A stretch of 64,000 nt of DNA from a virus. The DNA lies in IMG/VR virus record IMGVR_UViG_3300032799_000664, positions 62,001-126,000 of that record, one strand, 5' to 3'. The position numbers and the translations under genes are program-made. Below the pieces are notes generated by a model. That model searched no databases. It was given only the letters and a program-made list of their open reading frames with translations, and was not told where the DNA came from. Below, one piece after another: positions 477 through 61,182 of this stretch. The stretch's first letter is position 1, and each line of letters opens with the position of its first letter.

Positions 477-3203
477 TCAACCGCAGCCCGCGGCGTAGCC
501 GCAGGTGGGGCACTTGTGGCAGTTGGCGCCGCTGTGCACCGTGATGGCACCACAGACCGGGCAAGGTGGATTGGCGCCGATGCCGCCCTTCGTGGCGGGA
601 CGCAGCTCGTGATTCGGCGCATCGGACAGTTCTTCCTTCGGCGTACCGTGGCCGTTGGTCACCGGGTGTTTCAGGAAGATCGCCGCGAGCTTGCGCACCA
701 CGGCATCGTAGATGCTGTGCGCGTAGCCGATCTCCGGATCGTTGCAGAACCCCGACGGCGCGAACTTGGTGTACGCGAAGCTCTCGACCAGCTTCTCGAG
801 CGGCACGTCAGCTTGGAGGCACTGCGAGAAGGCGATGGCCCAACCCTTGACTAGACCGCTGACGGTGGATCCCTCCTTGGCCAGCTCGATGAAAATCTCG
901 CCGGGCATGTCGGTGTCTTCGAACGGCGTCACCAGTGCGTAGCCCTTGATGCCACCGAATTCGAAGCGAATGCGGTGCGCGTTGGACTGGTGATCCTTCA
1001 GTTTGCGCATTCGCTTGGTCCCGAGCACGACTCCGGGACCCTTAGCACCAGTGGTCAGCGGTTGTTCCAGCTTGGAACCATCTCGGTAGACGGTCACGGC
1101 CTTGAGCCCCAGCTTCCACGCATCGAGGAAAGCTTGGCCGACCTGTTCCACGGTGGTCGCGGCAGGAATGTTCATGGTCTTCGAGATGGATCCGGAGAGG
1201 AAAGGTTGCACCGCAGCCGTCATGCGCAGATGCGCATCGAGATTCAGCGTCCGCCCACTCGGAGTCGCGGCCATGGCACAGTCGAATACCGACAGATGCT
1301 TGGACGCTAGGTGCGGGCAACGGTCCAGGTTCTTGTGCTCGCCCAGCCAGGTCAGGATCTTCGCTTGAACCGCCACCGGGTAGTGCAAGGCCGTGAGCGC
1401 CTGGCCAACGCCATCGTTCTCCAGGACGATGATGCCGCCCCCGACAAGCTTCTTCTCCTTGTAGAGGCAGGCTTCCGGCTCCACGCCCGTGGTCTGGCAG
1501 TCCATGAGGAAGCCGATGGTGCCAGTAGGCGCCAGCAATGTCACCTGCGCGTTGCGGAAGCCGTACTCGTCGCCCCAGCTCGTCGCCTGTGACCAGCGCA
1601 TAGTGGATTCGAAGCCGTGTTCCTGTGCCGCTCGCAGGTGACGATCAACGACTTCAAGGTGCGAAGCGCGATTGCGAGCAAAAGCTTCGTAGGACCCGTG
1701 GGCCGCCGCTAGCTGCGCCGAAGTGGCGTAGGCCGTCGCGGTCATCAGCGACGTGATCTCAGCGGCGACGCGTCGTCCCGTGTCGCTGTCGTAGGGCACT
1801 CCGATCGACATGAGATAGGCGCCGAGATTGGCGTAGCCCAGCCCGAGCGGCCGATAGTGACGACTGTTCTCGGCGATCTTGGACGTCGGGTAGAACGCCG
1901 GTTCCACCATGACGTCCTGCGCGATGATGAAGGTCTGGACGGCATGACCGAAGGCGACGTGGTTGAAGGTGCCATCCTCGTTGCGAAACTTCATCAGGTT
2001 CAGCGACGCCAGGTTGCAGGCGGAGTCATCGATGAACATGAACTCGCCACATGGATTCGAGGCGCCGATGCGAGCATCGCTGGGACAGGTGTGCCACAGG
2101 TTGATGGTCGAATCGAACTGCATGCCCGGGTCGCCACAGGTGTGTGCGGCCTCGCTTAGGCGCTTGAAGATCTTCAGCACCGGCACCCGTTCGACCACCT
2201 CACCAGTGGTGCGCGAAGTGAGATCCCACAGGTATTCCCCGTCAGGATCGTTCAGCGCCTCTTCGACGAGCGACATGAATTCGTCGTCGACGCGCACCGT
2301 GTGATTCGCGTTCTGGAAAGCGACCGAGGCATAGGCGCCATTGGAATCGTTGAGATCGACAGGGTATCCCGCCGCCATCAACACCTGCGCCTTTCGCTCC
2401 TCGAGCAACTTGCTATCGATGAATTCGAGGATGTCGGGATGGTCCGCGTCGAGGATGCGCATGGCCGCGGCGCGTCGGGTAGTTCCGCCGCTCTTGATGA
2501 CGCCGCCCCAGGCGTCGAGTCCTCGCATGAAGGAGACGGGTCCCGAGGCGCGACCACCGCCGCTGAGGGGTTCCTTCGAGGAGCGTAGGCTCGAGAGGTT
2601 GACACCGGCTCCGGAACCAAGCTTGAAGATAGCAGTCTCGTGTGCCTGTAGCTGGGCAATCGAAGACAAGTCGTCCGTTACGCCCTGGATGAAGCAGGCC
2701 GCGATCTGGGGTTCACGGTCTTCGACTCCGAGGTTGAACCACACCGGCGAGTTGAAAGCGCCGCGCTGAGTCAGCAGCAGGTAGGTCAGGTCGTTGCGGA
2801 ACCGCTGCACATCTTCGTTCGTGGTGAAGTACGCCTGTTGCACTGCCCAGTCCCGGATGGTGTCGACCACACGGCGGATCAGCTGCCGTATGCTGACTTC
2901 ACGCTCGGGTGTTCCCAGCCGGCCGCGAAAGTATTTCTGCGCGGCGATGAGCACAGCGCGGTCCGACCAACCCGTCGGGGCTTCGACGCCGAGCTGCTCG
3001 AAGACAACCGCGCCATCTTTCCCGGTCAGGACCACGTCCACCGTTCGCCACTCCACCATGTCGAACGGGTCTTGTTGCTCAGGACAGAAGGACGCGCTGT
3101 AGGTCAACCCACGCTGAATACTGACCCCATTCGGCTCTTGTTCGCTCGATAGTGGCAGACTCTTCTCGACGACGGACAAGCCGTAGGGAACGGTGTTCTC
3201 CAT
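477..3203 (-). CDS. nrdJ: Class II (adenosylcobalamin-dependent) ribonucleotide reductase
   Basis: 908 aa, a usual length for a monomeric B12-dependent reductase. It reduces ribonucleotides to deoxyribonucleotides for phage DNA synthesis. The class II signature FNSPVWFNLG is at 150-159, followed by ACFIQG and a glycine-rich nucleotide-binding segment (KLGSGAGVNLS), the conserved NPCGE block, and LLAPTGTIGF. The C-terminal region has the domain typical of the vitamin B12-dependent type, ending in a zinc ribbon (CPVCG...CHKCPTCGYAAGCG) with the Cys pairs that re-reduce the active site. RBS AAGGAGAAGG precedes ATG 3203. Being oxygen-independent and single-chain, it needs no partner gene. Confidence 0.93.
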   Translation of the reverse strand: MENTVPYGLSVVEKSLPLSSEQEPNGVSIQRGLTYSASFCPEQQDPFDMVEWRTVDVVLTGKDGAVVFEQLGVEAPTGWSDRAVLIAAQKYFRGRLGTPEREVSIRQLIRRVVDTIRDWAVQQAYFTTNEDVQRFRNDLTYLLLTQRGAFNSPVWFNLGVEDREPQIAACFIQGVTDDLSSIAQLQAHETAIFKLGSGAGVNLSSLRSSKEPLSGGGRASGPVSFMRGLDAWGGVIKSGGTTRRAAAMRILDADHPDILEFIDSKLLEERKAQVLMAAGYPVDLNDSNGAYASVAFQNANHTVRVDDEFMSLVEEALNDPDGEYLWDLTSRTTGEVVERVPVLKIFKRLSEAAHTCGDPGMQFDSTINLWHTCPSDARIGASNPCGEFMFIDDSACNLASLNLMKFRNEDGTFNHVAFGHAVQTFIIAQDVMVEPAFYPTSKIAENSRHYRPLGLGYANLGAYLMSIGVPYDSDTGRRVAAEITSLMTATAYATSAQLAAAHGSYEAFARNRASHLEVVDRHLRAAQEHGFESTMRWSQATSWGDEYGFRNAQVTLLAPTGTIGFLMDCQTTGVEPEACLYKEKKLVGGGIIVLENDGVGQALTALHYPVAVQAKILTWLGEHKNLDRCPHLASKHLSVFDCAMAATPSGRTLNLDAHLRMTAAVQPFLSGSISKTMNIPAATTVEQVGQAFLDAWKLGLKAVTVYRDGSKLEQPLTTGAKGPGVVLGTKRMRKLKDHQSNAHRIRFEFGGIKGYALVTPFEDTDMPGEIFIELAKEGSTVSGLVKGWAIAFSQCLQADVPLEKLVESFAYTKFAPSGFCNDPEIGYAHSIYDAVVRKLAAIFLKHPVTNGHGTPKEELSDAPNHELRPATKGGIGANPPCPVCGAITVHSGANCHKCPTCGYAAGCG

Positions 3204-26286: not shown

Positions 26287-27312
26287 CTAGAAGCCCTTCG
26301 TCACGTCGGGATTGTCACCGCCCGGGCTGCTCGGGCTGCTGATGCCCAATCCGGCCATGTCGACGTTCTCATCGACTGCCGACGCCTGGGGACCACGATT
26401 CATGGTGGTCTGCCAGTGCTGCTTGAGGAACGCTTGGCGTTCACCGCGGAGCATCTGGTAGAGCGTCGCCGCCGACTCGCGGATGTGCGTGGGCGACGGT
26501 TGATTCGCGGACGACACGGCGAAGATGTGATAGTCCGGTCCCTTGTCGGAGCGCTGCACCGACGTCTCCAGGCTCAGCCAGCGATCCCAGATGGCGTCGC
26601 CTTCACTGGCCAGTTGGTTCACACGGCTGCCCGCCTTGCGGCTCGACTTGGCGAACTCGAGCTTGTACAGCCGCAGGTTCTGCGCGAGGACGATGTACGT
26701 CAGGACGTTGTCGCAGTCCGTCTTCTTCCCGGTGTTGTTCTTGCCCATCGGCAGGTACTGGCACTTCATGCAGTCACCGAACATGGTGCCGAGCTTCGCA
26801 TCGAATGCGACGCAAACGGGGCGACCAAGCGTGCCGTCCTGCGGGAACATCCGGTTCATCTCGAACCCGTAGAGCGGCACGAAGCGGAAGGGCTTGTCCA
26901 CCTTCGAACCGAACGAGGTGTAGAGGTCCCCGTTCTGGCAGCCTTCGGGGCGCTGCTTCGAAACCGCCTGGAGAATCCAGACGGTCGGAACCACGAATCC
27001 CTTGGCCATCTCCTCCAACCCCTCCTTCATGGGGTTGACGGAGCGCAGCAGCGAGTGGATCTGCTCCTGCTCAGCACCGCTGTACTTCGCGGCGATCGCC
27101 TGCAGCTGCGCCATCGCGGTGTCCTTCGCCGCGGTGAACGCTTCCATGTAGGCGTCCTTGGAGGGTGCGACGATCAGCGCCTGGTCACCGTTGTTGCCGG
27201 CGGCCGGCGCCGGCATAGCTGACACCTCGGCGACCGGCGCTTCGACCGGTGGTGGAGTTGCGGACTGCGGCGTGGTGGTCGTGGACGGAACAGTGTCTTT
27301 GGACTTTGACAT
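26287..27312 (-). CDS. Probable single-stranded-DNA-binding-type protein (341 aa)
   Basis: ATG 27312 has AAGGAGACTC before it. The first 55 residues are Ser/Thr/Pro/Ala-rich and disordered. The core (residues about 90-270) is beta-rich and aromatic with a Cys group (GDCMKCQYLPMGKNNTGKKTDC) that looks like a zinc site. The C-terminus is flexible and ends in an acidic-aromatic tail (DNPDVTKGF), a feature of proteins such as SSB that recruit partners. It is first in the replication operon under its own promoter. The assignment rests on layout and composition, not on a recognised family; it could be another replication accessory. Confidence 0.45.
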   Translation of the reverse strand: MSKSKDTVPSTTTTPQSATPPPVEAPVAEVSAMPAPAAGNNGDQALIVAPSKDAYMEAFTAAKDTAMAQLQAIAAKYSGAEQEQIHSLLRSVNPMKEGLEEMAKGFVVPTVWILQAVSKQRPEGCQNGDLYTSFGSKVDKPFRFVPLYGFEMNRMFPQDGTLGRPVCVAFDAKLGTMFGDCMKCQYLPMGKNNTGKKTDCDNVLTYIVLAQNLRLYKLEFAKSSRKAGSRVNQLASEGDAIWDRWLSLETSVQRSDKGPDYHIFAVSSANQPSPTHIRESAATLYQMLRGERQAFLKQHWQTTMNRGPQASAVDENVDMAGLGISSPSSPGGDNPDVTKGF

Positions 27313-27340
27313 CTTGAGTCTCCTTGTTGAGAAGGTCCTC

Positions 27341-27370
27341 ACGTTACCGTTGTGACACCAGTAGCGTCAA
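27341..27370 (-). promoter_or_regulatory. Sigma-70-type promoter of replication operon
   Basis: Minus strand TTGACG (27365-27370), 18-bp spacer, TAACGT (27341-27346), 28 bp before the start at 27312. Confidence 0.6.
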
Positions 27371-27375
27371 GCAGA

Positions 27376-27418
27376 TCCTCTTTACGGGAAGAGGACTTCT
27401 CACGGCTGTAAAGCCGTG
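27376..27418. promoter_or_regulatory. Two inverted repeats between divergent promoters
   Basis: TCCTCTT/AAGAGGA (27376-27395) and CACGGCT-GTAA-AGCCGTG (27401-27418) lie back to back between the replication promoter and the sigma-gene promoter. The second overlaps the extended -10 box of the sigma gene. They fit paired operators. Confidence 0.5.
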
Positions 27419-27436: not shown

Positions 27437-28276
27437 ATGCAGACTGAAGACCGTACCTGCGAGCAATACTTCCAAGAAGTCGGCCGCACCCAGATGCCCC
27501 GCAACGCTGAGGAGGAGCGGCTCCTCTTCGAACGCTACTTGAGCTCACAAGACGCGGAAGCACGGCGGCGCTTAGTCGAAGGCGGACTCCGGTTCGTCAT
27601 CAAGACGGCGCGGCAGTACTGCCACGGTGACGCCGAGTTCTTGAAGACGCTCATCCAGGCCGGCAACATCGGTTTGCTGATTGCGGTCGATCGCTACCGG
27701 CCCTGGGTGATCCGCTGCCATCACTGCGGCAAACAGTGCTACGTCGCCGCACCACAGAGTCAGCGTTGCACCGGCTGTGGCCAAGCGCTCCGTGCCAGCG
27801 AAGCGCAGCACTACACGACGCGTTTCCTCACCTACGCCGCGTGGTGGATCTCAGAGTCCATTCGGACTGAACTCTACAGCGCCAGCACGGTCTACGTGCC
27901 GCCCTACAAACAGAAGGCTCACCACCGCGCACGCCAAGCGGGACAAGAAGCCGGTTTCGTCTACGTCCCCTACGACGTCAGCGATGACCACACCCGGGCC
28001 GTAGCGGCCCAGGAAGACGATGAAGCCATCGTCACGAACAACGACGCCCGCCAACTCATCTACGCGCAGCTGTGCAGCTTGCCCGACCGGCAAGCCTTCG
28101 TCCTCATCGCCTACTTCGGTCTGCGGGAGGACGCCAAGACGCTGCGCGAGATTTCGCGGCGCCTTGGCGTATCCTCGGAACGAGTACGGCAGATCAAGGT
28201 GAAAGCGCTGGAAGACTTGCGGGATCGACTGGAGCAGCGGCGACTCCACGCCACCGACGACGCGTTGCTGAACTAG
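27437..28276 (+). CDS. Sigma-70-family factor with zinc-ribbon insertion (279 aa)
   Basis: Region 1.2-2.1 is at 11-62 (LRFVIKTARQY), region 2.2 at 70-87 (LIQAGNIGLLIAVDRY), region 2.3-2.4 at 129-146 (RFLTYAAWWISESIRTEL), and region 4 at 215-265 with the helix-turn-helix LREISRRLGVSSERVRQI. Between 2.2 and 2.3, at 89-125, a zinc ribbon is inserted (C94-HH-C97 and C111-TG-C114), where ordinary sigma factors have a short loop. ATG 27437 is chosen; a GTG at 27416 falls inside the operator. The factor could direct host or phage RNA polymerase to phage promoters. Its stop shares CTAG (28273-28276) with the convergent ParB-like gene. Confidence 0.88.
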   Translation: MQTEDRTCEQYFQEVGRTQMPRNAEEERLLFERYLSSQDAEARRRLVEGGLRFVIKTARQYCHGDAEFLKTLIQAGNIGLLIAVDRYRPWVIRCHHCGKQCYVAAPQSQRCTGCGQALRASEAQHYTTRFLTYAAWWISESIRTELYSASTVYVPPYKQKAHHRARQAGQEAGFVYVPYDVSDDHTRAVAAQEDDEAIVTNNDARQLIYAQLCSLPDRQAFVLIAYFGLREDAKTLREISRRLGVSSERVRQIKVKALEDLRDRLEQRRLHATDDALLN

Positions 28277-29367
28277 AACTCGTCGCGGAAGCCGGCCATC
28301 CACTCGAGCGTCGAAGTGACGCCCTTGAGGTACTGCCGCCGCTCTTCGGACTGGGCGCGGTCGTAGCGCTCGTAGGCCAACTCGAGGCCTTCGCGCACTT
28401 CGCGGCTGCCCTTGACCTCGATCTTCTTGATGCCGCGCAGCCGCTCGAGCGCCTTGTCGAGACCCTGACGAACGACGTTGGGTGCCTCGTTGGAATCCGC
28501 CGCCGCCGGCCGGCCCAGCGGTTTGCCGCTCTTCGCCTGCCGCCGCTCGTGCCGTGACTTCTCCGCCGTCCGCGCGATGTCCTTGCGGTCCACCTCGCCC
28601 TTGAGGAAAGCGTGGAACTTCTCCAGCTGCTTCTTCGGATCGGTGATGTCGAGCAGCTCGCGCGCATCGGTGAACTTGAGCTTGCCCTGGCGGAGCGCCT
28701 CCTGGATGGGCGCGGGCAGGTTGAGCAGGTCGAGCCGTTGGCTGATGTAGCCCTCGGTCACGTGCCAGCGCTGCGCCAGCACCTTGCCATTGATGACAGT
28801 GTCGACGCGCTCACCGGGGAAGCGCACGCTCTTGCCGAGGAGACTCTTGATGACCTCCGCCTCTTCCATCGGGTTGAGCCGCTCCGCCTGCCGGTTCTCA
28901 TCGGCCCGCACGAAGAGGATGGTCGTCTCGTCGTTGTTGAAGACCTTCACGGGCACCGTTGCGAGACCACCCAGCTTGGCCGCACGGAGCCGGCGTTCAC
29001 CAGCGATCAGATGGTACTTCCCGTCCATGGTCTTGTACACCGACAGCGGGTTGATGATACCGATGTGCTTGAGGCTGCCCGACAGTGACGCCAGGCGCTC
29101 GCGGTTGAAGTCCTGCCGTGGGTTTCGACCCCCATCGACGACGATGTCGCCGACTTTCACCTGGATCTGCGTACCGATCTCGGAGGTGTCGAGCTTCTGG
29201 GTCAGCGGCTTCTTCTCCTCGGGCTTCTTCTCCTCGGGCTTCTTGGGCTCCGGCTTCTTGTTGTCAGACTTGGCTTCGGACTTGCCGTTGCCGCCGACGG
29301 TGGCGCCATCCGGCATCTCGATGGAGATGGTCTTCCTGGGAGCATCGGGCTTTTCGGTCGTTGGCAT
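28273..29367 (-). CDS. ParB/Spo0J-like DNA-binding protein (364 aa)
   Basis: Residues 1-65 are disordered with Lys-Pro-Glu repeats (KKPEEKKPEEKK). The ParB N-terminal domain follows: NPRQDFNRERLASLSGSL, IGIINPLSV and the CTP-binding-type motif AGERRLRAAKL. A helix-turn-helix comes next (VLAQRWHVTEGYISQRLDLL), then a basic helical C-terminus. ATG 29367 has AAGGAGACTC before it. No ParA is seen in this window. In phages such proteins act in segregation, transcription control or DNA organisation. The family of 15-bp palindromes is a candidate target. Confidence 0.87.
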   Translation of the reverse strand: MPTTEKPDAPRKTISIEMPDGATVGGNGKSEAKSDNKKPEPKKPEEKKPEEKKPLTQKLDTSEIGTQIQVKVGDIVVDGGRNPRQDFNRERLASLSGSLKHIGIINPLSVYKTMDGKYHLIAGERRLRAAKLGGLATVPVKVFNNDETTILFVRADENRQAERLNPMEEAEVIKSLLGKSVRFPGERVDTVINGKVLAQRWHVTEGYISQRLDLLNLPAPIQEALRQGKLKFTDARELLDITDPKKQLEKFHAFLKGEVDRKDIARTAEKSRHERRQAKSGKPLGRPAAADSNEAPNVVRQGLDKALERLRGIKKIEVKGSREVREGLELAYERYDRAQSEERRQYLKGVTSTLEWMAGFRDEF

Positions 29368-29428
29368 ATCGAGTCTCCTTGTTAGGGGTGCTGCGCACTG
29401 TAACGCAAACAAAAGGGCGCAGGCAACC

Positions 29429-29785
29429 TCAACTCGCCGATTGCTGAACTGGGGGTGTGGTGGGTTCTGTGACCGGGGGTACGACCCGGAGATCCGGCGG
29501 ACCTTCCGTCGGTGGGGCCGGCGTTTCTGCGGCAGCAACCGGGGACAACTGATGCTGGATCTCCGTCGACGTCCGCTGCAGAGCCGCCAGCAAGTTGGCC
29601 ACCACGGCCAACCCCTTCAGCTGCGGCACCGCCGCGGACACGCCGGTCACCAGCGCCGTGCCAATGCCGAAGAGGGACACCAACCGATCACGATCGAGAT
29701 GCCAGCGCGGCTTGGTCATCCGCGCCAAAGCTACTGAGAAGTTGTGGACAGCATCGAGGATGCGCTCGAAGCGCGTCATGGACAT
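29429..29785 (-). CDS. Small protein with hydrophobic helix (118 aa)
   Basis: ATG 29785 follows GAGGAGGTCGGC; a second ATG at 29779 is possible. An amphipathic N-terminus is followed by LVSLFGIGTALVTGVSAAV, which could span a membrane, then a second hydrophobic helix and a Pro/Thr-rich tail. Function unknown. Confidence 0.6.
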   Translation of the reverse strand: MSMTRFERILDAVHNFSVALARMTKPRWHLDRDRLVSLFGIGTALVTGVSAAVPQLKGLAVVANLLAALQRTSTEIQHQLSPVAAAETPAPPTEGPPDLRVVPPVTEPTTPPVQQSAS

Positions 29786-38995: not shown

Positions 38996-39299
38996 GGTGA
39001 GGCTCCTTTCAGCTGAGTGGCGATGAAAAAACGAGACAGAAACGATTCACCGCAAGCGGCCTCCCGATGAAGGGAGGCCGCCTGCGGCTGAGCCCACGGT
39101 TGTACGAAGCGCCTCACCCATGGGCGAGTTCAGGGCGCCAAGGCCGACGTGTACCTTTTCACCGCGCTCTTTCGGCACCCACGCGGTCTAGCCTTCTCGC
39201 CTGCCGTAGACGTCAACTCTCCCTACGGCCGAGACGAAAGGCGAACTTCAACACCTTCTTATACCGGGCGTAGCGGTACTTTTCGGAGAGCCGCTGGTC
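38996..39299. other. Gene-free, structured region before RNA polymerase gene
   Basis: About 300 bp with no credible gene. Contains a perfect 10-bp stem GCGGCCTCCC/GGGAGGCCGC with 6-nt loop (39056-39081), flanked by CGCA/TGCG that extend it, and GCCGTAG/CTACGGC (39203-39229). No T-run follows either. It may hold regulatory sites for the divergent genes, or a small RNA. Confidence 0.5.
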
Positions 39300-39305
39300 T
39301 ATACT
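39300..39305 (+). promoter_or_regulatory. -10 box (TATACT) of RNA polymerase gene
   Basis: CTATACTTGC, nine bases before ATG 39315; the same ten bases occur at the promoter at 43780. No clear -35 box and no Shine-Dalgarno, so a near-leaderless mRNA is likely. Confidence 0.5.
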
Positions 39306-39314
39306 TGCTGCGCG

Positions 39315-42300
39315 ATGGCCTTGACCCCGGTTCTCATCGACGCCGCCACTCGTCGCACCCAGATCCACGAGAAAGCGACCGACGGGGTCCGCCGCGTGTT
39401 CCCGCTCGCCCTCCGTGATCATCGTGTCGAAGTCGAAGACCTCCACGTAGTCTCAAAGGAGTACTCCTCCCGCGAACAGAAAGACGCCCTGCTGCAGGGG
39501 CACACGCTGCAGGAGCCGCTCAAGGGAAGCCTCATCCTCAAAGACGCCGCCGGCAAGGTCGTCCAACGCAAAGACGACATCACGCTGGCGCAGTTGCCGT
39601 GGTTCACGCCGCGACACACGTTCATCGTAGACGGCAATGAATACTCGGTAGCAAACCAGCGTCGTGTCAGACCCGGCGTGTATACGCGGGTCAGGGGCAA
39701 CGAAGAGCTCGAAGCCGCGTTCAACCTAGGCCGCGGTGACAACTTCCGTCTCAGCATGGACCCCGCCAAGGGTCACCTTTACATGCAGTACGGGACGACC
39801 AACATTCCGCTCTACCCCATCCTGCGCAAGCTCGGCGTGCCGGAGACCGAGCTCAACCGCGCCTGGGGCAGCGGTGTTGTCGCCCAGAATCGCAGCATGT
39901 TCGCCGGTACCCCAGCGAAGGCCGACAAGGCCATGGACAAGCTCTACGAGCGGCTGGTGCCGGAGTACCGCCGCACGCACCATACGCAGGAAGCCAAGGC
40001 CGACGCCATCCACGAGAGCTACAACAACACAGTGCTGGACCCCGACGTCACATCCCGAACCCTGGGAGAAGCTTTCACACACGTGACGCCCACCGCGCTT
40101 GTTAAAGCTTCAAAGAAGCTGCTCGACGTACATCGTGAAGGCGTTGACACCGACGATCGTGACAGCCTCGCTTTCCAACAGCTGCTGAGCGCCGACGACT
40201 TCGTTCGCGAACGCATCCTGCTGGAAGGCCGCAACCTGGCCAAGAAGGCGCGCATGAAGGCGTCTTCGGGCAACCTCGACCTCGATCGCATCGTCCCACC
40301 GTCGCCATTCACCCGAACCCTCCGGAGCTTCATCACCAACAGCTCGCTGTCTTCGATCCCGACCCAAATCAACCCCGTCGAGATTCTCGACAGTGCTGCC
40401 AAGGTCACGACGTTAGGCGAAGGCGGCATTGAGTCCGAACGCGCCATCCCCAACGAGGCCCGCAGCCTCCACCACACGCACTTCGGCCTCATCGATCCGG
40501 CGCGTACTCCTGAGAGCTTCCACGCCGGCGTTGATCTACGTGCCGCCCTCTGGCTCAAGCGTGATGAGCAAGGCCGGATGCACACGTTGTTGCGCAACGC
40601 CAAGACCGGCAAACTCCAAGATGTCGCAGTCCAGGATGTTGAGAACGCCACCGTGGCGCTGCCGTGGCAACGTGCCCAGCAACGGGGTGTCTCTGCTCTG
40701 CGTGCCGGACAACCGGTCTCGGTCGGCCGCGGCGAAATCGACTACGAACTGCCGCACCCGTCCTTCATGTTCTCGCTGTCGAGCAATACCATACCGATGC
40801 CGGAGAGCGTCGAAGGCTTCCGCCTGCTGATGGGCGCCAAGCACGTCGGCCAAGCCCTCCCGCTAGTGCACCGGGAAGCCCCGCTGGTACAAGTAGCCTC
40901 GTTCAATCCACACCGCACCATGGAGCAGGAGATCGCTCGTTTCATCGTACCGCACGCCCCGGTCGCCGGCACCATCACCAAGGTCGACCAGGACTACATC
41001 TACCTGCGACCTGAAGCCAAGAAGAAGGCCGAAGCAGAGAGCGAATGGCCGCAACTGATGCCCGTCGAGCACGTCTATCTCGCTGAAGACGGTGAGAAAA
41101 CCGCCGCCACCCCGCTCATCAAGATCCCCTACGATGACCACTTCCCCCTGTCGTCCAAGACCTTCCTGCACAACAACGTCACCGTGAAGGCCGGCGACGA
41201 AGTCGATGCCGAACAGCTCCTCACCGATTCGAACGTCACCATGGACGGTCGGTTGGCGCTGGGCACGAACCTCCGGGTCGGCTATCTGCCCTATTACGGG
41301 GCCAACACCAACGACGCGGTGGTCATCTCACAGGCCGCCGCCGAGAAGTTGACCAGCGAGCACATGTACAAGGAAGTGCTCCAGCTCGACCTGGACACCG
41401 TGCTCGAGCGCGACAAGCATCGCGCCATGTTCGGCAGCCGTTGGACCGCCGCCCAGTACGCCCACCTCGATAACCGGGGCGTCGCGCGTTCCGGAGAGAC
41501 GCTACAGCCAGGCGATCCTCTCATCCTCGGGCTGCATAAGGCCCTACCCACCGCTGAACAGCGTATGCTTGGCAAACTTCACCGCACGTTGAACACGCCT
41601 TTCCGTGAGATTGCGTTGACGTGGGAGCACCGCTGTCCTGGCGAAATCGTCGACGTCGTCGCGACGCCATCGCGCATCCTACTCACTGTTCGCACCAGTG
41701 AACCAGCGGCGATTGGCGACAAGATCTCGAACCGCTACGGCGGCAAAGGGGTCGTTGCCCAGGTGCTGCCGATTGCCCAGATGCCGCATACGCCCGATGG
41801 GCGACCGCTGGAGCTGCTCATGCCACCCACGGGGGTGCACGGCCGCATCAACCCAGCCCAGATTCTGGAAACCGCGGTCGCGAAGGTCGCGGAGAAGACC
41901 GGCAAGCCCATCGTCATCGAGTCGTTCAGTGGCAAGAACAACGTGAAGTGGGCACGCGGGCTTCTCAAGGAGCACGGCCTCACCGACAAAGAGATCCTCG
42001 ACAACCCGATGACCGGGAAGACCATCAAGGGACCCGACGGCAAGGGCGTGATGGTCGGACCGCAGTACATCTACAAGCTCTTCAAGAGCACCGAGACGAA
42101 CTACAGCGCGCGCGGCGTCGAGGACTACGACGCGAATCTCCAGCCAGCAAAGGGAGGAGCGACAGGGGCGAAAGCCCTCGGGCGCATGGAGATCAACGCC
42201 CTGCTGGCGCACAACGCCCGCAACGTCTTGCGCGAATCCATGACCCTCAAGTCGTCACGCAACGACGAGTTCTGGCGCGCCTACCAGCTAGGCCTGCCGT

Positions 42301-43760
42301 TGCCACCAGCCCGCACCTCGTTCACCAGCGAGAAGTTCCTGGAAATGCTGCGCGGCGCCGGCATCAAGGTCGACAAGAGCAACGAGCAAATGACGCTCGG
42401 CCCGTTGACCGATGCCGACGTAAAGAAGCTCTCCGCCGGCGCCATCGCTCGGCCGCTCATGGTGAAAGAGAAGGACCTCTCCCCGGAGAAAGGCGGACTC
42501 TTCGATCCCGTAGTCACCGGCGGCACCAACGGCACGCGCTGGTCGCACGTCGACCTGCACGAACCGCTGGTGAACCCGACGTTCGAAGAACCAGTACGCC
42601 GTTTGCTGGGTCTCACCGTAGCGCAGTTCCGTGGTTTACTGGAACGTGAGGGTGGCGCCGGTATCCGTCGCCGCCTGGCAACCATCAACCTTGATCAGCG
42701 CGAACGCGAGCTCCGGAGTGAAGTTCGTGATGCCACCGGCGCCCGACTCGACGGATCCTTGAAGCAACTGAAGAACGTCCTGGCACTGCAACGCGAGAAA
42801 CTCTCCCCGGATCAGGCCTACATCATCTCGAAACTGGGTGTCGTACCCCCGGTGATACGTCCGATCTTGCCAGCCTCTCATGGCCGCAAGGACCTGTTGG
42901 TCTCTGACGCGAACTACTTGTACCGCGACGCGATGCTCGCCAACGAGAATCTCGCCGCCGCCAAGCACTCACTGCCACCCGAAGAAGTGGCCAAAGCGCG
43001 ACTCCACCTCTATGACGCCACGAAAGCAGTCTTCGGTCTCGGTGACCCGATGAGCCCACAGCTGCAGGGCCGCGGCGCCAAAGGCTTCATCACGACGATC
43101 GCCGGACAGGGTAGTCCCAAGGGTGGTTTCTTCCACGGCAAAGTCCTCTACCGCCCGCAGGACGTCAGTGGTCGCGGTACTGCGGTCCCCGACCTCAACC
43201 TCAACATGGACGAGGTCGGCATTCCCGAAGACATGATGTGGACGATGTACGGTCCGCACGTCATCCGGCGGCTGGTGCAGAACGGCTACCACGTCGTCGA
43301 TGCACAGAAGGCGCTCGAAGACCACATGCCGGTGGCCCGTGAAGCCCTGCTGCGTGAAGCACAAGAGCGCCCGCTCATCGTCAACCGCGCCCCCACGCTG
43401 CACCGCTACGGCATGATCGGTGCGTACCCGGTGCCGGTGCCGGGAAAGACGTTGCGGGTCAATCCGTTCATCGAGAAAGGCCTCAACCTCGACTACGACG
43501 GCGACACGCTGACTGTCCACGTCCCCGTCATGCCGGGCGCAGTCAAGGACGTGAAGTCGATGCTGCTGTCCAACCTGCTCTTCGGCGACAAGACCAAGAG
43601 CGACCTGTTGGTCTTCCCCCAACACGAAGCCATCGTCGGGGTGCACCTAGCCAGCAACGCCAAAGACGGCAAGAAGTACCGTTTCAAGACCAAGGCCGAG
43701 GCGCTCGCCGCGTATCGTCGCGGCGAAATCGCGCTCGACGCCGAGATAGAGATCGGTTGA
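39315..43760 (+). CDS. RNA polymerase beta subunit fused to N-terminal (catalytic) part of beta-prime
   Basis: 1481 aa. Residues 1 to about 1015 are beta: TNDAVVISQAAA, GDKISNRYGGKGVV (from 801, with the two conserved Lys), LELLMPPTGVHGRINPAQILE in parts, and the beta C-terminal block GRMEINALLAHNARNVLRE. From about 1030 beta-prime begins (LTDADVKKLSAGAIARP, then GGLFDPVVTGG), without the first zinc finger of cellular beta-prime. SKLGVVPPVIRPILP, then the active-site loop N1391-LDYDGD-1397 with three Mg-binding Asp, and it stops after the YRRGEIALDAEI segment. The rest of beta-prime is encoded at 48210-50024. No alpha or omega gene is visible. It contains EKTA (from E594), the motif shared with virion proteins. 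Confidence 0.92.
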   Translation: MALTPVLIDAATRRTQIHEKATDGVRRVFPLALRDHRVEVEDLHVVSKEYSSREQKDALLQGHTLQEPLKGSLILKDAAGKVVQRKDDITLAQLPWFTPRHTFIVDGNEYSVANQRRVRPGVYTRVRGNEELEAAFNLGRGDNFRLSMDPAKGHLYMQYGTTNIPLYPILRKLGVPETELNRAWGSGVVAQNRSMFAGTPAKADKAMDKLYERLVPEYRRTHHTQEAKADAIHESYNNTVLDPDVTSRTLGEAFTHVTPTALVKASKKLLDVHREGVDTDDRDSLAFQQLLSADDFVRERILLEGRNLAKKARMKASSGNLDLDRIVPPSPFTRTLRSFITNSSLSSIPTQINPVEILDSAAKVTTLGEGGIESERAIPNEARSLHHTHFGLIDPARTPESFHAGVDLRAALWLKRDEQGRMHTLLRNAKTGKLQDVAVQDVENATVALPWQRAQQRGVSALRAGQPVSVGRGEIDYELPHPSFMFSLSSNTIPMPESVEGFRLLMGAKHVGQALPLVHREAPLVQVASFNPHRTMEQEIARFIVPHAPVAGTITKVDQDYIYLRPEAKKKAEAESEWPQLMPVEHVYLAEDGEKTAATPLIKIPYDDHFPLSSKTFLHNNVTVKAGDEVDAEQLLTDSNVTMDGRLALGTNLRVGYLPYYGANTNDAVVISQAAAEKLTSEHMYKEVLQLDLDTVLERDKHRAMFGSRWTAAQYAHLDNRGVARSGETLQPGDPLILGLHKALPTAEQRMLGKLHRTLNTPFREIALTWEHRCPGEIVDVVATPSRILLTVRTSEPAAIGDKISNRYGGKGVVAQVLPIAQMPHTPDGRPLELLMPPTGVHGRINPAQILETAVAKVAEKTGKPIVIESFSGKNNVKWARGLLKEHGLTDKEILDNPMTGKTIKGPDGKGVMVGPQYIYKLFKSTETNYSARGVEDYDANLQPAKGGATGAKALGRMEINALLAHNARNVLRESMTLKSSRNDEFWRAYQLGLPLPPARTSFTSEKFLEMLRGAGIKVDKSNEQMTLGPLTDADVKKLSAGAIARPLMVKEKDLSPEKGGLFDPVVTGGTNGTRWSHVDLHEPLVNPTFEEPVRRLLGLTVAQFRGLLEREGGAGIRRRLATINLDQRERELRSEVRDATGARLDGSLKQLKNVLALQREKLSPDQAYIISKLGVVPPVIRPILPASHGRKDLLVSDANYLYRDAMLANENLAAAKHSLPPEEVAKARLHLYDATKAVFGLGDPMSPQLQGRGAKGFITTIAGQGSPKGGFFHGKVLYRPQDVSGRGTAVPDLNLNMDEVGIPEDMMWTMYGPHVIRRLVQNGYHVVDAQKALEDHMPVAREALLREAQERPLIVNRAPTLHRYGMIGAYPVPVPGKTLRVNPFIEKGLNLDYDGDTLTVHVPVMPGAVKDVKSMLLSNLLFGDKTKSDLLVFPQHEAIVGVHLASNAKDGKKYRFKTKAEALAAYRRGEIALDAEIEIG

Positions 43761-43786
43761 GCAATCGTCCATCGATGACCTATACT
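43757..43786 (+). promoter_or_regulatory. Sigma-70-type promoter
   Basis: TTGAGC (43757-43762), 18-bp spacer, TATACT (43781-43786); the -35 box overlaps the stop of the RNA polymerase gene. Drives the following plus-strand genes. Confidence 0.6.
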
Positions 43787-43821
43787 TGCGGTACTGGTCA
43801 TCCACAGCAAGGAGCGTACCC

Positions 43822-44058
43822 GTGAGCCATCTCGATACCGCGTTCAAGATCGGCGCCGCACAGGCGCAGCACGATTTCCAGGCTGAGCTCGACAAGGTCG
43901 CCCAGGGCGACATGCGTCCGCCCATCCCCACACCGGACATCCGGCCGGGGCAGCCGCAGCCGGGTCCCGCACCACGTCCCATGCCGGCTCCCACCCCGAA
44001 GCTGCCCATCCCGAATCCCGGGCTGGGACCGCGTCAGCCGGGCCGCCCAGTCCTGTAG
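43822..44058 (+). CDS. Small Pro-rich protein (78 aa)
   Basis: GTG 43822 has AAGGAGCGTACCC before it. N-terminus SHLDTAFKIGAAQAQHDFQ is helical; from residue 35 almost every third residue is Pro (PRPMPAPTPKLPIPNPG). Probably an extended virion or adaptor protein. Function unknown. Confidence 0.65.
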   Translation: MSHLDTAFKIGAAQAQHDFQAELDKVAQGDMRPPIPTPDIRPGQPQPGPAPRPMPAPTPKLPIPNPGLGPRQPGRPVL

Positions 44059-44635: not shown

Positions 44636-46141
44636 GTGGCAGCGATCTACACCATCGGAGGTCAGCTCGCCGCACTGGCGGACCTCGGCCTACTGAAGAC
44701 TGCCCAGGCTGCACTGCCCGGCGAGTTCGCTCCGGGCATCCCCAAGGGCAAGCCAGTCTCCCCACTCCCAACGATCAACGCTGACACGCTCAACCGCTGG
44801 ACGCTCGCGGTGCAGCACCACGAAACTACGCGCTCAGGTGGACGCGCCCACTTCGATCTGCGACTCGTCGATCCTGATGCAGGGAAGGCCCACTCGTGGG
44901 CCATCCCCAAGGCCCGACTACCGGAGCCAGGTGAGAAGCTACTGGCGGTTCAGACGTTCACGCACACCCCCGACTACGCACTCCACTTCGGCGAGAAGGG
45001 TGAGCAGACGATCGGTTCGGGATACGGCGCCGGCAAGGTCCGCATGGCGCTCAAGGAACCAGTCGACGTAGTCGAAGCGAACCGCGACAAGGTTCGCTTC
45101 AACGTCTACCAGGGGAAGGACATCAACGAGTACCTGCTGCACCGCACCCACGGCGACAAGTGGCTACTGCAGAACGTGACCATCACCAAAGCACGGCGCC
45201 CAGACATCCCGCAGAGCAAGCCTGACTACAAGGAGACGACCCCGGACAAGGTCGACGTCACCAATGATCAGCAACTCATGGCCGCAAAGGTCGACGGCGC
45301 ACACAACACATTCGTACTTGATGCGGGTCAGCCCGTACGGGTTTTCAGTTATCGACCTACCGAACGCGACACCGGGATCATCGAACACAGCCACCGATTC
45401 CTCCCCGGATACACGACCCGCGTGCCTGATCATCTCGACCAACTGGTGCTCCGGGGAGAACTCGTCGCCGCCGACCCTCACACCGGAAGAGCTCGCGGAA
45501 CTCAAGATACGGGCGCCGTCCTCAACTCCGGCGTATGGAAGAGCCGCGATCTGCAAACTCACACGCCGCTGCGAGCGATCATCTTCGATGTCGCGCGGCG
45601 CCACGGGAAAGACCTGGAGTCACTCCCCTACGAGAAGAAGCTGTCCATCCTTGGGGAGGTCCACAAGTCGCTACCGTTCCTCGAACTCCCGCCGATGGCG
45701 CGGACGGCGAAAGAGAAGATCGACCTGCTGAACCGGATTCGCACCGGACAGGAGCCGATCACCAGCGAAGGCGTCGTACTCTGGCCCCTCGCCGGTGGCC
45801 CGCCCACCAAGGCCAAGTTTCGGCCGGACCACGACGTCTACGTGCGTGAGGTCTACCCAGAGACGGGGTCGCGTACCGGGTTGGCCGGCGGCTTCCGCTA
45901 CTCCTGGACCCCCGAGGGCAAGATCGTCGGCAACGTCGGCACCGGGCTCGACCACGCGCTCAAGCGCGACATGCTATCGAACCCCGCGAAGTACATCGGC
46001 CGCGTCGCCAAGGTGCAGGCCCTCGGGCTCTACCGCGACAAGGAGCATCCGAAGAAGCCGGGCGCACTACGAGCACCGGCGTTCAAGGATTGGCACCTCG
46101 ACAAGGGCCTGCAGCTCTTCGATCTGCCGAAGGAGAAGTGA
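44636..46141 (+). CDS. LigD-like 3'-phosphoesterase domain fused to ATP-dependent DNA ligase (501 aa)
   Basis: Residues about 50-160 match the LigD phosphoesterase: HHETTRSGGRAHFDLRL, SWAIPKARLPEPGEKLLAV, and GSGYGAGKV. The ligase part follows: motif I AAKVDGAHN with the adenylated Lys218, motif III LVLRGELVA, motif IV SEGVVLWPL, motif V AKFRPDHDVYVREV. Bacterial LigD joins the same two activities (often plus a polymerase) for end joining; no polymerase domain or Ku gene is visible here. GTG 44636 is used, RBS weak. KTAQ near residue 21 precedes the first domain. Confidence 0.88.
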   Translation: MAAIYTIGGQLAALADLGLLKTAQAALPGEFAPGIPKGKPVSPLPTINADTLNRWTLAVQHHETTRSGGRAHFDLRLVDPDAGKAHSWAIPKARLPEPGEKLLAVQTFTHTPDYALHFGEKGEQTIGSGYGAGKVRMALKEPVDVVEANRDKVRFNVYQGKDINEYLLHRTHGDKWLLQNVTITKARRPDIPQSKPDYKETTPDKVDVTNDQQLMAAKVDGAHNTFVLDAGQPVRVFSYRPTERDTGIIEHSHRFLPGYTTRVPDHLDQLVLRGELVAADPHTGRARGTQDTGAVLNSGVWKSRDLQTHTPLRAIIFDVARRHGKDLESLPYEKKLSILGEVHKSLPFLELPPMARTAKEKIDLLNRIRTGQEPITSEGVVLWPLAGGPPTKAKFRPDHDVYVREVYPETGSRTGLAGGFRYSWTPEGKIVGNVGTGLDHALKRDMLSNPAKYIGRVAKVQALGLYRDKEHPKKPGALRAPAFKDWHLDKGLQLFDLPKEK

Positions 46142-50048: not shown

Positions 50049-50077
50049 TTGTGAAAGCCGAGAGTACGTCCTATCAT
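50049..50077 (+). promoter_or_regulatory. Sigma-70-type promoter
   Basis: TTGTGA (50049-50054), 17-bp spacer, TATCAT (50072-50077). The sequence CGTCCTATCATTGG recurs at the promoter at 60463-60491. Confidence 0.65.
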
Positions 50078-50129: not shown

Positions 50130-51491
50130 ATGTCACTGTTCAAGCGCGCATACGTCCGAGGAGTCAACGACGAGCTCGTGCGTCTGGGACTCATCCGTTA
50201 CCCCGTCAAGGAGGCCGCTGACGAGATCGCCGACGCGGTCGGTGACCAGCTGCCCGCCGAACCCGCTGGCGAACCGGTGTCCCCGGAGACCGCCGCCGAC
50301 GTCGCTGCCACGCTCGTCGACGCGGCCACCAAGCTGGTGTCCGAGACGCAGGGCGAAGGTCTGGCCCCCGAAGGCGCCCCACCGATGCCCGAGGAAGCCG
50401 CCCTCAAGACCTCAGCCGCCCAGGACCTCGACACACGTGCTGGCGCGCAAGCCTACGCCTGCATGATGAAGGCCGCGGAAGAGGTCAAGCAGGCCGAAGG
50501 CTCAACCATCGAAGGCGGCGACAAGGGCAACTCGCCGACGGGCACGGCCCAGGCCGAAGCCCAGATGGAGAACAAGAACCGGCCCGAGCAGTACGCCAAC
50601 ATGGGTGTCTCCGGCGTCGGTGGCACCGCTTCGGGTGCCGGACGCGGCACCGGCGTCATCGGCAACGAGCAACCCCAGCCAGCTGCCCCGAAGGAGAGCC
50701 CGAGCGGCTCCAACAGCGTCATGCAGCAGTCGAAGATGGGCAGCCTCGCCGAGATCATCCGCAAGGTCGCGATGGCGAAGCAGGCCGAAGGCTCGACCAT
50801 CGAAGGCGGCGACAAGGGCAACACGCTGGCCGAAGCGCCGGCCGCCGAGACGCAGATGGAAGCGCGCAACCGCCCCGAAGGTTACGCGCACCTCGGCCGT
50901 CCGGGCATGGGCGAGACCGACCTGACGGTGCCAGCCGGCGCCAATGTCGGCGTCGAACAGGCTCACCCGAACGCGCCCGCCGAATCACCACCCGGCGCCC
51001 TGCCGCCCAGCAGCGCCAACTCGATCGTCGAGAACTCCAAGACCAGCGAGATCGATCCCTTCCTGGCGCTCTTCAAGAAGACCGCCGAGGAGGTCGCCGC
51101 CTTCCTGCCCAAGACCCTCGTCGACGAGGACAAGATCGCCCACGTGCGCCGCATGATGGGCATGAACGACGTGGAGCGCACCGAGTACCTCGGCTTCATC
51201 GCCAAGGATGCGGGGGCCACGGACGATCAGGCCGTCTCGATCGCCGAGAAGCACGCGTCGGTCTCCAGTCGGCGGCGCTACCAGGGCAACTCCGGCCGCC
51301 AGGACCGCACCCGGGCCAACCAGAAGCAGGCCGGTGAGCTGCCCCCCGCCCTCCAAGCCGTGATCGACGCCAAGAAGAACGGCGACAAGAAGGACGACGA
51401 CAAGAAGGACGAGAAGAAGGAGAAGGAAGAGGAGAAGAAGGAAGGCTCCGACCTGCTCTCCCGCATCCGCGCCATCCGGCACACGGCGTAG
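50130..51491 (+). CDS. Repeat-containing virion-type protein with Lys/Glu-rich tail (453 aa)
   Basis: ATG 50130 has GGAGGAGAGAACG before it. Two copies of a roughly 45-residue unit begin QAEGSTIEGGDKGN (near residues 121 and 218) and continue with AxxQME(N/A)xNRPE and a Gly-rich end. A helical domain (residues 310-400) follows, then a strongly charged tail (KKDDDKKDEKKEKEEEKKE). KKTAEEV near residue 315 carries the shared motif. Scaffold- or core-like in composition; no family recognised. Confidence 0.72.
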   Translation: MSLFKRAYVRGVNDELVRLGLIRYPVKEAADEIADAVGDQLPAEPAGEPVSPETAADVAATLVDAATKLVSETQGEGLAPEGAPPMPEEAALKTSAAQDLDTRAGAQAYACMMKAAEEVKQAEGSTIEGGDKGNSPTGTAQAEAQMENKNRPEQYANMGVSGVGGTASGAGRGTGVIGNEQPQPAAPKESPSGSNSVMQQSKMGSLAEIIRKVAMAKQAEGSTIEGGDKGNTLAEAPAAETQMEARNRPEGYAHLGRPGMGETDLTVPAGANVGVEQAHPNAPAESPPGALPPSSANSIVENSKTSEIDPFLALFKKTAEEVAAFLPKTLVDEDKIAHVRRMMGMNDVERTEYLGFIAKDAGATDDQAVSIAEKHASVSSRRRYQGNSGRQDRTRANQKQAGELPPALQAVIDAKKNGDKKDDDKKDEKKEKEEEKKEGSDLLSRIRAIRHTA

Positions 51492-60462: not shown

Positions 60463-60491
60463 TTGTTTTACGGGAACAGGCGTCCTATCAT
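60463..60491 (+). promoter_or_regulatory. Sigma-70-type promoter
   Basis: TTGTTT (60463-60468), 17-bp spacer, TATCAT (60486-60491), sharing CGTCCTATCATTGG with the promoter at 50049. Starts the last operon, which leads to the capsid gene. Confidence 0.65.
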
Positions 60492-60519: not shown

Positions 60520-61182
60520 ATGGAACTCGCACAGATCATGCACCGCCTCGACCAGAGCACGCAGACGGCGTCGTCCGGCGTGAAGACCGCCGCCGCCGGC
60601 ACGAACGGCACGGGCACGGCACCCGAAGCTCTTCGCGACGTGTTGCGCACGGTCATGACCCAGGAGAAGACAGCGTCCGCCACTGCGCCTGCCGCCAATG
60701 CGCCGGTCGGTGATCTGCTGAAGATCGCCGAAGACCTCAGCAACGCCGAGCACGAGCGCCTCATCAAGCTGTCGGAGGTCTACGGCGCCGCCATCTGCGA
60801 CGGCTTCATGGCGAAGTTCGCGGAGTACGAAGCCGCCGCGCTCCAAGTCGCGCCGCCCCAGGTGAAGACCGCCGCCGCACAGGCCGCTGCCGCCGCGCAA
60901 CCGCAGATGGTCGACCAAGCCGTCGAGCAGATCAAGACCGCCGCGGAAGACCCGGCGTTCGTCAAGTTCGCCGAAGCGAACCCGGAGCTGGTGAAGGAAG
61001 CCTACTCCCTCGGCTACCAGCGCCAATGGGAAGGCCTCGAGAAGCAAGCGCAGGATGATTTCTCGCGCGGCTACAACGAAACCATGACCGAAGTCCACAA
61101 GCTGGCCGCCGACTGCTACAAGGCCGGCGCGGTGACCATCAACGACGTCCTGCGGCAGCAAGCCGCGCAGGGGCGGCGCTAG
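60520..61182 (+). CDS. Virion-type Ala-rich protein (220 aa)
   Basis: ATG 60520 has GAGAGGGCC before it. Ala/Gln/Lys-rich helical protein with at least four copies of the shared motif: VKTAAAG, EKTASAT, VKTAAAQ and IKTAAED. Scaffold-like composition in front of the capsid gene. No family recognised. Confidence 0.7.
   Translation: MELAQIMHRLDQSTQTASSGVKTAAAGTNGTGTAPEALRDVLRTVMTQEKTASATAPAANAPVGDLLKIAEDLSNAEHERLIKLSEVYGAAICDGFMAKFAEYEAAALQVAPPQVKTAAAQAAAAAQPQMVDQAVEQIKTAAEDPAFVKFAEANPELVKEAYSLGYQRQWEGLEKQAQDDFSRGYNETMTEVHKLAADCYKAGAVTINDVLRQQAAQGRR

Follow-up and report, generated by a model that had tools for sequence, protein, structure and literature searches.

A phage sigma-70-family factor with a zinc-ribbon-like insert between regions 2.2 and 2.3, encoded alongside a phage RNA polymerase

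A sigma factor that carries extra residues beside the part that melts promoter DNA raises two questions, namely what the extra residues do and which RNA polymerase the factor serves. Such a protein is encoded in the 64,000-nt stretch of viral DNA analysed herein (the window), where a sigma-70-family factor of 279 amino acids lies on the plus strand (Table 1; an alternative in-frame GTG start at 27416 would add seven amino acids). Its best matches in the PDB are RpoS and SigA, to which residues 9–89 and 129–158 align whilst the insert between them does not, and its RFLTYAAWW aligns to RFSTYATWW, with the −10 melting residues and the tryptophan dyad present. The likeness to bacterial sigma-70 factors (RpoS, RpoD/SigA) covers regions 1.2, 2.1–2.4, a linker resembling region 3.2, region 4 with its helix-turn-helix and the W-W dyad. 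Absence of region 1.2, which marks ECF (group 4) factors, does not apply to the window sigma, since it aligns to RpoS from residue 9; its region 1.2 part is predicted to form helices at residues 2–16 and 24–37. A full region 3 (3.0–3.1) is a feature of group 1 primary factors, and Pfam gave no Sigma70_r3 match in the window protein, where only ~50 residues separate regions 2.4 and 4. Unlike its bacterial counterparts, the window sigma thus has little of region 3 beyond the 3.0 helix, carries a ribbon-like element in the specificity loop and comes from a phage that also encodes an RNA polymerase.

Table 1 Features of the window that bear on the sigma factor, the phage RNA polymerase and the candidate promoters.
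Feature	Position	Strand	Evidence
Gene of unknown function, divergent from sigma	26287..27342	−	Syntenic in the G008 relative
Phage sigma-70-family factor	27437..28276	+	ORF (ATG 27437, stop 28276), Pfam, PDB matches; full-length homologues in viral contigs
Sigma regions 2.1–2.2 (residues 38–87)	27548..27697	+	Alignment to RpoS/SigA; high-pLDDT helices 40–61 and 66–86
Sigma insert, zinc-ribbon-like (residues 88–128), Cys 94/97/111/114	27698..27820	+	Cys invariant in 8/8 same-layout sequences
Sigma regions 2.3–2.4 (residues 129–150), melting residues RFLTYAAWW	27821..27886	+	Alignments, structure model
Sigma region 4 (residues 206–266), putative −35 reader	28052..28234	+	Pfam Sigma70_r4 214–262, E 2.6e-13
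ParB-like gene, convergent with sigma	28273..29538	−	Syntenic in the G008 relative
−10-like CTATACTTG, 16 nt upstream of the gene for the polymerase fusion	39299..39307	+	
Fused beta + beta' N-half, 1481 aa	39315..43760	+	Pfam RNA_pol_Rpb2_3, Rpb2_6, Rpb1_1, Rpb1_2; DYDGD active site
Beta flap-tip helix PTAEQRMLGKLHRT, sigma4 docking site	41547..41588	+	Aligned to Thermus EPTPEERLLRSIFGE
Site of missing beta' N-terminal zinc-binding domain: GGLFDPVVTGGTNGTRWSHVDLHEP	42492..42566	+	No Cys in beta' half
Beta' clamp coiled coil, sigma2 docking site	42906..43040	+	Aligned through GGRFATSDLNDLYRR of cellular beta'
−10-like CTATACTTG upstream of gene at 43822	43780..43788	+	
Separate beta' C-half, 604 aa	48210..50024	+	PHROG RNA polymerase beta subunit matches
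Class I promoter TTG-N17(+3)-TATCAT upstream of gene at 50130	50049..50077	+	
Class I promoter TTG-N17(+3)-TATCAT upstream of gene at 60520	60463..60491	+	

The insert, its conservation and its relatives

The insert holds C94-x2-C97...C111-x2-C114 between AVDRY (83–87) and RFLTYAAWW (129–137), in the loop that joins the 2.2 and 2.3 helices, and is about 35 residues long, as judged from a gap of 35 columns against relatives that have no insert at that place. This loop is the "specificity loop", in which solved complexes show the master base of the −10 element flipped and held (PMC6411747). The Pfam Sigma70_r2 match of the window protein ends at residue 90, the start of the insert; split in this way, it scores 23.6 bits, just below the cut-off of 24. 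The same domain is found in all 50 aligned members of the sigma family (best 5.8e-20). The four Cys are invariant in all eight sigmas that share this layout (layout A), i.e., the window protein and those of seven contigs from several metagenomes, at identities down to ~40%, which argues that the insert is not a product of chance; Cys101 of the window sigma is not conserved. The initial annotation, which had placed a CxxC...CxxC insert between regions 2.2 and 2.3, is therefore upheld, as alignments break at this very place and the homologues keep both the insert and its Cys. Ordinary primary sigmas, to which it had ascribed a variable insertion at the same site, in fact carry theirs (the NCR) between regions 1.2 and 2.1.

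Conservation within the insert extends beyond the Cys (conserved residues include PW.I, V, QRC, LR and TTRFLTYA), and across five thinned layout A sequences invariant columns make up 37% of the insert, 34% of regions 2.1–2.2, 36% of region 4 and 7% of the 3.0–3.2 linker. The insert carries a basic charge of +4 to +10; net charge across the whole proteins ranges from +3 to +11. The two conserved CxxC knuckles that characterize zinc ribbons are present in the window sigma, its Pfam zinc-ribbon match reaches only E 0.04–0.05, and the ribbons of relatives match the Pfam families DZR (2.8e-4), Zn_ribbon and rubredoxin-like (best 7e-6); the window insert is a putative zinc-binding module. A match of the insert to phrog_29158 (E 3e-5) had no equivalent in the relatives and was dropped as likely due to chance.

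A protein search of viral contigs with the window sigma retrieved three relatives, and searching polymerase-bearing contigs for sigma added that of G008, a 180-kb contig, which is 43% identical, has all four Cys and is flanked by the same two neighbour genes. An alignment-based search then gave 71 sigma loci, or 57 distinct proteins, comprising 8 with the ribbon between 2.2 and 2.3 (layout A), 9 with a single ribbon between 1.2 and 2.1 (layout B), 12 in a clade with two tandem ribbons between 1.2 and 2.1 (layout C, several with further Cys in region 3) and 28 without a ribbon. In a sigma tree limited to columns with at least 60% occupancy, and so without the inserts, layouts A, B and C each form one clade (99/97, 100/99 and 100/98, respectively). 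Searches of phage and plasmid collections by tblastn yielded ordinary sigmas and no insert-bearing sigma among the matches looked at (the loop of the Vibrio phage VAP7 sigma is just slightly longer). In two scans of 84,980 bacterial/archaeal genomes that work by short peptide patterns, one using the window protein and the other an alignment centred on the ribbon, no sigma with a ribbon came up, which is not proof of absence; the two matches were RpoD-like and ribbonless.

In the AlphaFold2 model of the window sigma, computed from a 50-sequence alignment, pLDDT is mostly near or above 90 in the sigma2 core and 56–68 (low confidence) in the ribbon, where one beta hairpin (91–93/100–102) is predicted. 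Residues 1–150 superpose on SigA/RpoD over 111 residues at 2.2–2.3 Å, so the predicted sigma2 fold stays intact despite the insert; a broken fold, which would have spoken against the initial annotation, is not what the model of sigma alone gives. In one layout B sigma the 1.2/2.1 ribbon is predicted at pLDDT 94–97. Both models show 2.1 and 2.2 as long helices that follow one another and, as the sigma2 fold is antiparallel, 2.1 begins at the same end of the hairpin at which 2.2 finishes, so that the ribbons of layouts A and B, despite their two places in the sequence, would project from the same end.

A phage RNA polymerase that accompanies the sigma

The polymerase that the initial annotation attributed to the phage is indeed encoded in the window, as a beta/beta'N fusion and a separate beta' C-half, and both sigma docking sites are kept (Table 1). 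Within the flap-tip helix L752, G753, L755 and H756 are invariant in four relatives, and the beta' C-half has a PDB beta' match at E 3.5e-40 with CEAPHGVCQRCYG aligned and the second beta' zinc site kept. The N-terminal zinc-binding domain of beta', which touches the spacer at −23 in the bacterial open complex (PMC6411747), is missing: a direct junction, GLFDP..TGG..G..WSH[IV].L.EP, stands where bacteria carry ~40 more residues. The same junction is present wherever the pattern is readable among the relatives' fusions, and no extracted fusion protein has a CxxC at this site. The domain is likewise absent from the group's ribbonless phages, so such a polymerase can do without a ribbon on its sigma; a one-to-one rule, by which absence of the beta' zinc domain implies a sigma ribbon, was rejected on these grounds.

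The fusion or its pieces were detected in 41 of the 50 surveyed contigs with this sigma family, several of the remaining contigs being short fragments. In the polymerase tree, sigma layouts A, B and C and the ribbonless D1 and D2 each correspond to one clade (SH-aLRT 100), and the matching clades indicate that sigma and polymerase have travelled together. This joint history suggests, and does not prove, that the two work together. The trees disagree on the sister of layout A, which adjoins the single-ribbon layout B clade in the sigma tree (95/93) and a ribbonless clade in the polymerase tree (SH-aLRT 99), so that it is uncertain whether the ribbon arose once.

The fusions differ in further respects. 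Three of them (L097, L098 and L115) carry an intein with a LAGLIDADG endonuclease directly after the catalytic DYDGD (Pfam Intein_splicing, LAGLIDADG_3), fusions of other relatives have a ~300-residue insertion at a different conserved spot, and the beta part of the G008 fusion (L091, around residue 644) has an extra Cys-rich stretch, ECCDVCSSS...CEKHKEE, that is absent from the window protein.

Candidate promoters

The window and 20-kb pieces from six related contigs were scanned upstream of genes for enriched words, without a preset motif, using gene calls that were made by codon usage and are approximate. Two promoter classes were recovered, class I (CCTAT(A/C)(A/C)TT) and class II (GGTATnAG). 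In the three layout A genomes, 12 of 19 CTATnnTT sites have a TTG at a hexamer spacing of 16–18, 11 of them at exactly 17 (expected 0.76). The combined TTG-N17-TATnnT is enriched upstream of genes (10/14 in G008, p 1e-12), and spacings 14 and 20 are not, save for spacing 14 weakly in the layout C genome. Class I sites occur upstream of the polymerase fusion and inside the gene block after it, one member of which weakly matches a head maturation protease. Class II has no −35 element; it is strong in layout B genomes (20/37 upstream in G015, p 1e-19) and present in layout A and D genomes too. Strong enrichment of class II sites upstream of genes was seen in G001, G015, G018 and G036 (L130–L176), and in the window a class II copy (39258–39265, minus strand) and the −10 of the polymerase gene stand back to back.

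CCTATnnTT is enriched alike in phages with the 2.2/2.3 ribbon (G000, G001 and G008), with the 1.2/2.1 double ribbon (G024) and with no ribbon (G036). As phages with and without a ribbon share class I, the ribbon probably does not alter which −10 sequence is read, and the earlier suggestion that the insert could alter promoter choice is unsupported as far as a gross change is concerned.

What the ribbon may do

The interpretation we prefer, with moderate confidence, is that the protein is the specificity subunit of the phage's own multisubunit RNA polymerase and that its ribbon steadies the open complex. Regions 1.2, 2 and 4 would act as in any sigma-70 factor: sigma2 would sit on the beta' coiled coil and melt a TATA-type −10 element, whilst sigma4 would sit on the beta flap tip and read a TTG-type −35 element 17 bp upstream. 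The 35-residue insert would fold as a zinc ribbon projecting out of the specificity loop where the −10 element has its upstream edge, and there its basic surface could contact promoter DNA and/or the adjacent clamp without sequence specificity and in this way steady the open complex. Its basic charge, its position and the absent beta' zinc domain together suggest that the ribbon supports the melted region at its upstream edge. Judging from the conserved docking surfaces, sigma and polymerase would interact and form a phage holoenzyme; contact of the ribbon with DNA or core, and reading of the promoters by the phage polymerase, are likewise what we infer. The phage beta' has lost the domain that in bacteria contacts the −35/−10 spacer, and the sigma ribbon may fill this gap; that sigma2 ribbons at two sequence places took over the role of the domain lost from the phage polymerases is a tentative and rather doubtful extension, given the ribbonless relatives that share this loss.

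The main competitor is a sigma that works with the host polymerase, its ribbon helping it to compete with or replace the host sigma whilst the phage polymerase relies on another factor. According to reviews of 2020, 2021 and 2026, a phage has either a multisubunit RNA polymerase or a sigma of its own, the sigmas redirecting the host core and the polymerase-bearing phages being without one (PMC7598289, PMC7824862, PMC13282480), and the promoters have a bacterial architecture: TTG-N17-TATAAT also resembles the promoters of bacterial sigma-70 holoenzymes. The second class, GGTATnAG, also counts against a firm assignment of promoters to polymerase. Against a host partner stand the polymerase found in 41/50 contigs, the matching groups of the sigma and polymerase trees, and the retention of both docking sites on the phage core, and we regard it as rather unlikely. 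An ornament, neutral or merely stabilising and gained on an exposed loop by recombination, would account for ribbons that occur at two sequence places and are absent from neighbouring clades, yet the insert columns, non-Cys ones included, are conserved like the functional core of sigma, which makes this improbable.

The position of the insert, in the specificity loop and replacing loop residues of ordinary sigmas, would also suit a ribbon that reshapes the −11 pocket so that a different −10 element is read; we deem this quite improbable in view of the CCTATnnTT shared by G000, G001, G008, G024 and the ribbonless G036. Finally, metal-dependent sigmas with Cys-rich domains exist, and in CorE-type ECF sigmas (ECF238) a C-terminal Cys-rich extension plus a CXC in the linker form a metal switch (PMC8999054). 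The window sigma resembles them in having a Cys-rich and, here, predicted metal-binding part. Its ribbon, however, is internal to sigma2, it has neither a C-terminal Cys-rich domain nor the CXC of the sigma2–sigma4 linker, and its Cys pattern is that of a structural rubredoxin/DZR-type ribbon, inside a phage gene; a metal or redox switch gating sigma is thus very unlikely.

The preferred reading, a phage sigma serving a phage polymerase, has partial counterparts in known systems. The mReC phages (Multimeric-RNAP-encoding Caudovirales; Weinheimer and Aylward 2020, PMC7481178) are uncultured tailed-phage contigs in IMG/VR whose beta and beta', as here, are alignable to the cellular subunits, whereas the phages described here carry beta fused to beta'N; the word "sigma" is absent from the main text of that paper. 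The mReC capsid family PF07068 (Gp23) had no match in 10 records, which may be fragments, nor in any control genome. The non-virion polymerases of phiKZ and AR9 are also phage multisubunit enzymes with a promoter-specificity subunit of their own (gp68 and gp226, respectively). AR9 gp226 does not resemble sigma in sequence, and the likeness of phiKZ gp68 to it is reported to be structural only (PMC13282480), whilst the window protein is a clear sigma-70 sequence homologue. The NCR of E. coli sigma-70 is likewise an insertion in the sigma2 module, and the ribbons of layout B and C relatives occupy its site; it is not a zinc ribbon, and the window insert lies instead between 2.2 and 2.3. The open-access literature we searched yielded no account of a zinc ribbon inside sigma region 2.

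A widespread phage group possesses both an RNA polymerase and a sigma, with matching phylogenetic groups and recognisable bipartite promoters. If the two do work together, they would represent an independent lineage of the sigma-holoenzyme system, which three phage proteins might suffice to rebuild in a tube. The specificity-loop ribbon may be viewed as a natural domain-insertion experiment in the promoter-opening element, and the loss of the beta' zinc domain that is paired with it could offer a direct test of the role of that domain.

Other genes were noted in passing. G008 also encodes a region-4-only sigma-like protein (L019:1207–1701, minus strand), a possible second transcription factor. 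Outside the window, at G000:C1:18037–18114 (minus strand), a very short ORF gives a weak Sigma70_r4-like match and recurs in G001. Within the window, the plus-strand gene at 44636–46141, between the polymerase genes, combines an ATP-dependent DNA ligase core with a LigD 3'-phosphoesterase-like domain, and a class II (B12-dependent) ribonucleotide reductase is encoded at 477–3203 on the minus strand.
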